Shown here: positions 19,823 to 21,276 of the stretch, piece after piece | Layout of the letters: every line of letters starts with the position of its first letter | How positions within the stretch are numbered: position 1 is the first letter of the stretch | Assembly: GCA_903831095.1 (NCBI GenBank) | Contig: CAIKWD010000013.1 | Location: forward strand, 1 to 34,676 | Source of the DNA: Candidatus Staskawiczbacteria bacterium | Lineage (GTDB): Bacteria; Patescibacteriota; Minisyncoccia; Minisyncoccales; Staskawiczbacteraceae | Length of the DNA: 34,676 bases | Direction of reading: 5' to 3' | Position numbers and translations under genes: made by a program | The notes under the pieces: generated by a model | Told to the model about the DNA's origin: nothing | Seen by the model: only the letters and a program-made list of their open reading frames with translations | Databases searched by the model: none

Positions 19823-19852
19823 TTGACAGCTATTTTAGTATTTTGATATCAT
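19823..19852 (+). promoter_or_regulatory. Promoter of ncRNA unit 1
   Basis: TTGACA(19823-19828)-18-TATCAT(19847-19852), TGA before -10. Confidence 0.75.
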
Positions 19853-19858
19853 TAAGTT

Positions 19859-20214
19859 GAAGATAGTACATTGAGTATTTATTAACCGCCCACAAAATTG
19901 TCTATTTGTAAAAACAGATAATTTCGTGGGCAGTTGCAAGATTTGTTTTTAGAGATTGAAGAAGTTGATATTTCGTTGAAGTATTTGTCGGGCGCACATG
20001 TATTGTGCAAAGGAATAAAACTACGAGCTTAGAGTTGCTCCTTTTTACCCGACCCGCTTGAAAAAGTAGCCTCAATAATATTAATAGCAATAACCCTTGC
20101 CACTGCCTACGTCTTTCGTACATTAAAAATTAAATCCACCTCATATACCATCCTCTACCACACTTCTCAAATCTTTTCATTAGTCATGGCTACTCTCTTG
20201 TAGCCTTTTCTTTT
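19859..20214 (+). ncRNA. Tandem structured ncRNA, unit 1
   Basis: Hairpin GCCCAC/GTGGGC + AAATT/AATTT (19888-19931); long-range AGTTGCAAG(19932-19940)/CTTGCCACT(20096-20104); GTCGGG(19987-19992)/CCCGAC(20048-20053); 3' terminator. Confidence 0.72.
20188..20214 (+). terminator. Terminator of ncRNA unit 1
   Basis: GGCTAC-TCTCTT-GTAGCC-TTTTCTTTT. Confidence 0.85.
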
Positions 20215-20244
20215 ACGTTAAATGCTTGTTAAGATGCATGGCGA

Positions 20245-20273
20245 TTGACATGGAATATATATTATGCTATCAT
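20245..20273 (+). promoter_or_regulatory. Promoter of ncRNA unit 2
   Basis: TTGACA(20245-20250)-17-TATCAT(20268-20273), TGC before -10. Confidence 0.82.
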
Positions 20274-20279
20274 CAAACA

Positions 20280-20699
20280 GGATTAGTTCATTAAATAATT
20301 TGTATTGCGTCTGCGAAATTGCCCATTTTAAAACAGTGAGTAATTTCGCGGACACACAGTTGGTAGGATCAGTCTTATGACCTCCCTTCAATAGGGAATA
20401 TCGGGGCTATATCGCCCCTGGAAATATGGTCATTTTGACAGCTGGTTGTTGCTTCACAGCGATAAAAAATCAGCCTTTGATTTTGGGGGTTCTCGTTGAG
20501 GTTTGCACAATAAATTGGCTAGTTATTATGCCTCGTTGAGAGTCATTTTGATTCAGACCCATTTAGTGTTGCACTATACCCTCCCTACCAACTGCCGCCT
20601 TCTCGCTTCTTTAACAATTTAATCTCCCATATATATCACACTCCACCTCACATCCTAAAACATTCATACGCATGGCCACATTTTTTGTGGCTTTTTTTT
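20280..20699 (+). ncRNA. Tandem structured ncRNA, unit 2
   Basis: 12-bp hairpin GTCTGCGAAATT(20309-20320)/AATTTCGCGGAC(20342-20353); 11-bp long-range CAGTTGGTAGG(20357-20367)/CCTACCAACTG(20584-20594); ATGACC(20377-20382)/GGTCAT(20428-20433) enclosing TCCCT/AGGGA and GGGGC/GCCCC. Confidence 0.75.
20675..20699 (+). terminator. Terminator of ncRNA unit 2
   Basis: GCCACA-TTTTT-TGTGGC-TTTTTTTT. Confidence 0.9.
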
Positions 20700-20709
20700 G
20701 CATAAAATA

Positions 20710-20737
20710 TTGACATACTTTTTATTCCTGGTAGTAT
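20710..20737 (+). promoter_or_regulatory. Promoter of ncRNA unit 3
   Basis: TTGACA(20710-20715)-16-TAGTAT(20732-20737), TGG before -10. Confidence 0.72.
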
Positions 20738-20743
20738 TAAATC

Positions 20744-21141
20744 TATATTTAACTCTTAACCGCCTACTAAATTGCCCGTTTGTGAAATTGGCAGCTTAGT
20801 GGGCAGTTACAGGTTTCAGTGTCCTTCTGGATTTTATCCGATAACTGGGAAAGTCCCGCACAGATTTCCCGTTGTAGCGGATATTGAAGGAGGGAATGCT
20901 CATTGCACTGATTTGAGGAATAACAACCCTCAAGAATATTGGTTAGTTGTACCGGGGCGCTGATATGCATAGTTTTGACGGACTATTGCAAAAGTCTAAG
21001 GTGATTGGTTCCTTGCCAATAACATCATTAAAGCGATATAACGTCGGTTTTAACCCAATAATTCTCCTGTACTGCTCCCCTAATTTTGTTCTTTTATTTT
21101 TTTTATTTTTATGGCTGTACTTCGGTACAGCTTATTTTTTT
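20744..21141 (+). ncRNA. Tandem structured ncRNA, unit 3
   Basis: Hairpin GCCTACTAA(20762-20770)/TTAGTGGGC(20796-20804); long-range CAG-T-TACAGG(20804-20813)/CCTGTACTG(21066-21074); TATCCG(20835-20840)/CGGATA(20878-20883) enclosing GGGAAA/TTTCCC. Confidence 0.72.
21114..21141 (+). terminator. Terminator of ncRNA unit 3
   Basis: GCTGTAC-TTCG-GTACAGC-TTATTTTTTT. Confidence 0.9.
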
Positions 21142-21151
21142 ACATAAATAT

Positions 21152-21180
21152 TTGCAATAAATCATTTTTTTTGCTAAAAT
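21152..21180 (+). promoter_or_regulatory. Promoter of tRNA-Ile
   Basis: TTGCAA(21152-21157)-17-TAAAAT(21175-21180), TGC before -10. Confidence 0.7.
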
Positions 21181-21201: not shown

Positions 21202-21276
21202 GGGCGCGTAGTTCAGTGGTAGAACGCTATCCTGATAAGATAGAGGTCGAAGGTCCGATTCCTTCCGCGCCCACCA
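21202..21276 (+). tRNA. tRNA-Ile(GAT), CCA encoded
   Basis: GGGCGCG TA GTTC AGTGGTA GAAC G CTATC CTGATAA GATAG AGGTC GAAGG TCCGATT CCTTC CGCGCCC A CCA. Confidence 0.95.

Follow-up and report, generated by a model that had tools for sequence, protein, structure and literature searches.

Introduction

The antitermination element of rRNA leaders and spacers is built of boxB, boxA and boxC and works with NusB and S10; the E. coli boxA consensus is GCUCUUUAACAAU, and the tRNAs of the classical 16S-23S spacer are tRNA-Ile(GAU) and tRNA-Ala(UGC). The lambda nut and HK022 put sequences are likewise antitermination RNAs, nut being a hairpin plus boxA. Large structured bacterial ncRNAs include OLE, GOLLD and ROOL, of which the latter two often lie near tRNA genes, while 6S RNA is one long bulged hairpin. 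The role of boxA, NusB and NusE has been described (PMC5725501, PMC10250234), and the boxA of the suhB 5′ UTR represents Nus-factor regulation outside rRNA (PMC5725501).

Here we describe three tandem units, U1, U2 and U3, in a 34,676-nucleotide stretch of DNA from a Candidatus Staskawiczbacteria bacterium, a tiny organism not yet cultured (the whole stretch analysed is referred to as the window). The units and their relatives resemble the rRNA leader/spacer element in that a boxA-like sequence, evident in about half of the units, follows a hairpin, in that they lie after 16S or beside the spacer tRNAs Ile(GAU) and Ala(UGC), and in the adjacency of the nusB and RNase III genes; they differ in having the make-up of separate genes with promoter, terminator and a long variable domain, in carrying boxA 3′ of the structured domain, and in belonging to a clade in which the Rho domain was undetected. 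They share with nut the logic of hairpin plus boxA, in an RNA that could modify polymerase, but neither phage genes nor an N protein accompany them and termination is immediate. As in suhB, a boxA-like sequence stands outside rRNA operons, but the units are no mRNA leader. They are structured and hundreds of nucleotides long like OLE, GOLLD and ROOL, but are matched by no Rfam family; and with 6S RNA they have in common the stand-alone gene and a possible link to polymerase, but their fold is a branched A-B-A′ arrangement and, again, Rfam gives no match. Our literature search found no report on ncRNAs of this clade.

Results

Three promoter-terminator units between gatA and tRNA-Ile(GAU)

The interval from the end of gatA (19817) to the start of tRNA-Ile(GAU) (21202) was examined on both strands, and three promoter-terminator units were identified (Table 1). 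An earlier note, made from the letters of this DNA alone, had assigned to each unit a TTGACA with a TGn-extended -10 (TATCAT, TATCAT and TAGTAT); the TTGACA is exact in all three, and in 200 shuffles per upstream region the native score was never reached. The 5′ hairpin around AAATTGYCYRTTT and the CAGTT after it, both proposed in that note, are present in the units, and the proposed terminator starting with ATGGC was recovered in all three as a stem-loop with a T run. Four terminators were found against 1.1 expected, each stem-loop of U1-U3 being preceded by ATG and followed by a run of T. As a control for folding we used dinucleotide shuffles, against which the units gave z-scores of -3.9, -4.9 and -2.9 (0 of 100 shuffles equally stable).

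Table 1. Positions in the window of the elements assigned to U1, U2 and U3 and to the neighbouring tRNA gene.
Feature	Position	Strand	Basis or remark
U1 promoter TTGACA-18-TATCAT, TG-extended -10	19823..19852	+	promoter scan and shuffles
U1 hairpin P1 (arm A, loop, arm B)	19884..19935	+	R2 match 19877-19951, 76.1 bits; covariation
U1 P2 5′ strand (B) GTGGGCAGTTGCAAG	19926..19940	+	overlaps P1 3′ arm
U1 P2 3′ strand (A′) CTTGCCACTGCCTAC	20096..20110	+	
U1 degenerate boxA-like sequence (GTCTTTCGTACATTAAAAATT) and C-rich tail	20111..20184	+	4% G; largely unpaired
U1 intrinsic terminator (ATGGC...)	20186..20214	+	stem-loop 20188-20205
U2 promoter TTGACA-17-TATCAT, TG-extended -10	20245..20273	+	promoter scan and shuffles
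U2 hairpin P1	20306..20356	+	R2 match 20298-20373, 61.3 bits
U2 P2 5′ strand CAGTTGGTAGG	20357..20367	+	no overlap with P1
U2 P2 3′ strand CCTACCAACTG	20584..20594	+	
U2 boxA-like sequence CTCGCTTCTTTAACAATTTAA	20602..20622	+	
U2 boxA-like sequence and C-rich tail	20602..20671	+	3% G; 80% unpaired (predicted)
U2 intrinsic terminator	20672..20700	+	stem-loop 20674-20692
U3 promoter TTGACA-16-TAGTAT, TG-extended -10	20710..20737	+	promoter scan and shuffles
U3 hairpin P1	20758..20808	+	R2 match 20751-20824, 53.8 bits
U3 P2 5′ strand TTAGTGGGCAGTTACAGG	20796..20813	+	overlaps P1
U3 P2 3′ strand CCTGTACTGCTCCCCTAA	21066..21083	+	
U3 boxA-like sequence TTTTGTTCTTTTATT	21084..21098	+	
U3 intrinsic terminator	21111..21141	+	stem-loop 21113-21132
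Promoter-like TTTGCA..TAAAAT of tRNA-Ile(GAU)	21151-21180	+	
tRNA-Ile(GAU)	21202..21276	+	neighbour common to related loci

In agreement with the statement that the interval holds no credible ORF, none of its four short ORFs had a Pfam match that passed the cut-off. The Rfam search of the window detected tRNA only and no family matching the units, and with the Rfam 15 covariance models the units of ten homologous loci remained unmatched above the gathering threshold, riboswitch, GOLLD, ROOL and OLE models included, in keeping with the earlier note, which did not recognise the units as tmRNA, RNase P RNA, 6S or SRP RNA; the Rfam matches near the units of relatives were rRNA or SAM riboswitch in adjoining genes, plus tRNA. 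One such SAM riboswitch lies between tRNA-Ile and metK in G003 (L066:465-568), and none was found upstream of metK in the window. A tmRNA-like domain was considered and rejected, its only trace being a single sub-threshold match of 27 bits after A′ in one 16S trailer (L046).

Common to U1-U3 are P1, P2, the boxA-like sequence, which is degenerate in U1, the nearly G-free tail and the terminator. The branched internal domain of the earlier description held as far as folding is concerned, but the P2-enclosed domains cannot be aligned between units. By their own promoters and terminators U1-U3 are stand-alone ncRNA genes, a statement made at the level of sequence only, transcription being inferred.

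A covarying hairpin and a long-range helix

In an alignment of 19 homologs, the hairpin P1 (about 22 bp) has standard pairs in 90.8% of cells, and both sides have changed in 17 of its 22 pairs; no measure of its pairing was equalled by any of 500 shuffles, and slid registers were at most 43% paired. The second helix, P2, is formed between CAGTT with the adjoining strand, located after P1, and AACTG about 150-250 nt downstream, and it encloses the variable domain. Over 34 units the duplexes of own P2 partners average -22.2 kcal/mol against -11.1 kcal/mol for exchanged partners, and the own partner ranks first in 24, which was matched by none of 2000 permutations. Because the P2 strands were picked by eye beforehand, this permutation tests specificity and not discovery; in an unbiased local-duplex scan with 30-nt B segments the P2 signal was barely separable from shuffles. 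The criterion for a new structured RNA family, compensatory changes above shuffles, is met for P1, and the specificity of P2 is supported.

The 5′ strand of P2 shares nucleotides with the 3′ arm of P1 in many units, so that the A-B and B-A′ pairings compete for one strand, and partition functions predict P1 or P2 to win depending on the unit. The competition is common but not universal, since U2 and some others lack the overlap and the G004 unit lacks arm A. The compensatory changes in P1 and P2, together with the consensus promoters, indicate selection.

Relatives of the units and their distribution

The search of the genus by blastn gave no credible homolog, only low-complexity or terminator matches, and relatives therefore had to be sought by structure. 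A first covariance model of P1, built from the hairpins of U1-U3, gave matches in the genus, family and order, and a second model (R2) was built from 19 hairpins. With R2, 39 of 247 genomes of the order were matched; these include 22 genomes from the same family, and within the same genus 10 of 12 were matched. The search of the phylum gave weak matches only (17 of 384 genomes), so that the RNA family hardly extends beyond one taxonomic family. Judged by its named members, this taxonomic family includes Candidatus Staskawiczbacteria, for which record L246 again has the element 3′ of gatA. Several genomes (G006, G010) gave no match to the R2 model of P1, and the matches to the pattern AACTGYYC-N-TKYTCTTT were mostly noise. 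The genome of the window itself carries a fourth copy on a different contig (G000:C9:202-320), and five copies are present in G030. The units belong to a genuine RNA family not previously catalogued, as it is absent from Rfam, and the candidate new family of the earlier note is borne out by homologs with strongly covarying structure in related genomes. The family and its promoters are well supported; expression, the function of boxA and action in trans are inferences.

Association with rRNA and tRNA genes

The element adjoins tRNA-Ile(GAU) in 12 genomes including that of the window; ten of these have the tRNA gene downstream in the same orientation, and in G002 and G009 it faces the element from the opposite strand. 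In about ten genomes the element follows the 3′ end of 16S and precedes tRNA-Ala(UGC). The 16S and 23S genes are not adjacent, being kilobases apart where both are on one contig (G018, G019). What is expected of an rRNA-type element, a location in or next to segments of the rRNA operon, is met, and its affinity to the rRNA spacer is well supported. An own promoter was detected at p<=0.05 for 18 of the 25 units outside the 16S-trailer class, with TGCTATCAT as a recurrent -10 in several genomes, while nine 16S-trailer units gave no convincing promoter of their own; the G008 unit lies directly 3′ of 16S, yet has its own promoter. These arrangements suggest that parts of the rRNA-operon spacer have turned into RNA genes in their own right. 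The earlier note missed P2, the A-B-A′ competition, the boxA-like motif, the fourth copy and the association with 16S, tRNA-Ile(GAU) and tRNA-Ala(UGC); in the light of this association, the candidate new family is apparently one derived from the rRNA spacer.

The 23S leaders of the same taxonomic family have a promoter, an A-B-A′ arrangement with a U run and then boxA, an order comparable to that of the units. Several of these leaders (L219, L222, L224-L226) carry a conserved GAAGCGG / ACCGCTTC / AAGGCGGTTTTT followed by a boxA-like sequence, and resemble an attenuator or antiterminator pair before 23S rRNA. In the 16S leaders L097, L099, L103-L105 and L109 a conserved hairpin CCGCGAA...TTCGYGGGTATTTTTTT, similar to an intrinsic terminator, was observed 5′ of 16S rRNA. 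The rRNA genes of the 16S/23S loci in G005, G006, G014, G016 and G019 contain large insertions; the one in G019 carries an ORF and looks like an intron. P1-like hairpins after a promoter were also noted in L060, L045 and L048, in apparent 5′ UTRs of small ORFs; some have GTTCTTT in front, and their homology is weak or unclear.

A boxA-like motif in a G-poor tail

The sequence GYTCTTTnACAATTT, located after P2, is boxA-like. Of the 34 units, 15 carry the strict form [GT][CT]TCTTT in the 40 nt that follow A′, against a mean of 2.5 and a maximum of 7 in 1000 shuffles. The most enriched 6-mers after A′ include, together with T-rich ones, GCTCTT, GTTCTT, TTAACA and ACAATT, which in combination give the boxA of E. 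coli rRNA operons. Examples of the sequences after A′ are TTAATTGTTCTTTT, TCGCTCTTTTACA and CGTTCTTTAACAATTTTT, and in U2 CGCTTCTTTAACAATTTAA. In U2, GCTTCTTTAACAATTTAA is close to the E. coli boxA consensus; since the motif is degenerate in U1 and not evident in about half of the units, it is termed boxA-like. It also differs slightly from the boxA of rRNA leaders in the same clade (TTGAAAATTTA type). From the motif to the terminator, the tails of U1-U3 contain 3-4% G and are predicted to be 69-80% unpaired.

Two other explanations were considered. The C-rich, G-poor composition of the tail could suggest a rut site, which was rejected because the 38 genomes searched yielded no Rho RNA-binding domain. 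The CCACCTC and TCTCCTC stretches could serve as anti-Shine-Dalgarno antisense, an idea set aside because several relatives' 16S 3′ ends lack CCUCC and an SD-like motif was noted for only 6 of the 31 ORFs of the window that were checked. The 16S 3′ ends themselves (L035:1-60, L097, L046 and others) read GGATCATTTTTTT / GGAACATTTTTTT / GGATCATATTTTA, the anti-Shine-Dalgarno CCUCC seemingly missing.

Nus factors, RNase III and Rho

NusB is encoded in the genome of the window and in 34 of 38 genomes, and RNase III in 17 of 19; the two genes are adjacent in the window's own genome (G000:C11:31413-32324) and in several relatives. The search for the Rho_RNA_bind domain was negative in all 38 genomes of the order, including that of the window, while the control search was positive in 9 of 14, and termination in the lineage seems to be intrinsic. 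With the Rho domain undetected, neither a rut site nor protection against Rho accounts for the tail and boxA, and this exclusion favours a Nus-factor-binding RNA.

Discussion

The explanation that we favour, with belief and doubt about evenly balanced, is that U1-U3 are stand-alone RNA genes derived from a 16S-tRNA spacer element and bind Nus factors via boxA, both the binding and the transcription being inferred. Its computational basis consists of the family itself, the helices P1 and P2, the promoter matches, a boxA-like motif enriched after P2 and the context of rRNA and tRNA genes; processing and action in trans are inferred. In the simplest history the rRNA operon would have been dispersed and the spacer element carried along with its fragments, to become an independent gene next to tRNA-Ile, amplified to three at this locus. 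Each RNA is predicted to begin at its own strong promoter and to form P1, after which P2 would close the variable branched domain, often by capturing the 3′ arm of P1; the boxA-like sequence would then be displayed in the unpaired, nearly G-free tail, until the RNA is ended by its own terminator. BoxA would probably recruit NusB and S10; these could be loaded on the polymerase during elongation, or the RNA could serve as a decoy by which the transcription and assembly of rRNA are tuned. P1 may be processed by RNase III. The main weakness of this explanation is that boxA lies 3′ of the structured domain with little but the terminator beyond it, which makes classical cis chaperoning of that domain impossible; and, as the enclosed domains are not conserved, no specific target in trans is evident.

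The chief rival, which we regard as unlikely, is that the units form a cis leader, a series of tandem attenuators or antiterminators for tRNA-Ile (and metK), in which B pairs with A or A′ and a boxA-modified polymerase passes the intrinsic terminators into the tRNA. In the ten genomes with both on one strand, tRNA-Ile does follow the units at a distance of 135-825 nt, and the similar A-B-A′-U-run-boxA order of the 23S leaders is attenuator-like. This rival is weakened by the two relatives with tRNA-Ile on the opposite strand and by the separate terminators, as a single leader hardly accounts for a row of three units that are each complete with promoter and terminator; moreover, tRNA-Ile(GAU) has a promoter-like site of its own, and for the G000d, G009b, G017b and G021 units the downstream stretch that was read contained no tRNA gene. 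An unrelated function in trans, as a 6S-like regulator of polymerase, an antisense RNA or a protein scaffold, with the motif and the rRNA context reflecting ancestry only, is also rather improbable, yet would suit the strong promoters and terminators, the variable domains and the units without an evident motif; it leaves aside that the motif is enriched at one site across units and that the neighbours are consistently genes of the rRNA operon.

Two further possibilities were weighed. That the units are decaying spacer relics, neutral leftovers of the breakup of the rRNA operon with functionless hairpins, could be argued from the fast divergence of the domains and from the genomes without a match, but we consider it very improbable in view of the selection to which the compensatory changes and the consensus promoters point. 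A mobile palindromic element of MITE or REP type, scattered into noncoding sites, is scarcely credible: the recurring AACTGTCC motifs and the multiple copies, as in G030, would be expected of it, but the copies are dissimilar in sequence, without credible blastn homologs in the genus, and are limited to a few conserved rRNA/tRNA contexts, with promoters and terminators. There is no phage match, the viral pattern matches lack the hairpin, and the phage/viral comparison yielded no similar copies, leaving an attC, MITE or phage origin unsupported.

Returning to the Nus-binding explanation, it is conceivable but doubtful that pieces of the rRNA spacer serve as multigene trans-acting RNAs that present boxA to NusB-S10, as a sponge or sensor of free S10. 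We know of no regulator class of boxA-presenting ncRNAs with such a role. If true, the sponge or sensor would couple the supply of ribosomal protein to rRNA synthesis, in a lineage with dispersed rRNA operons in which the Rho domain was undetected. Almost nothing is known of the ncRNAs of Patescibacteria, and the family offers a defined target supported by covariation. It makes a role of boxA and NusB testable where, with the Rho domain undetected, the textbook anti-Rho role is inapplicable, and it suggests that spacer elements of rRNA operons can turn into stand-alone genes.
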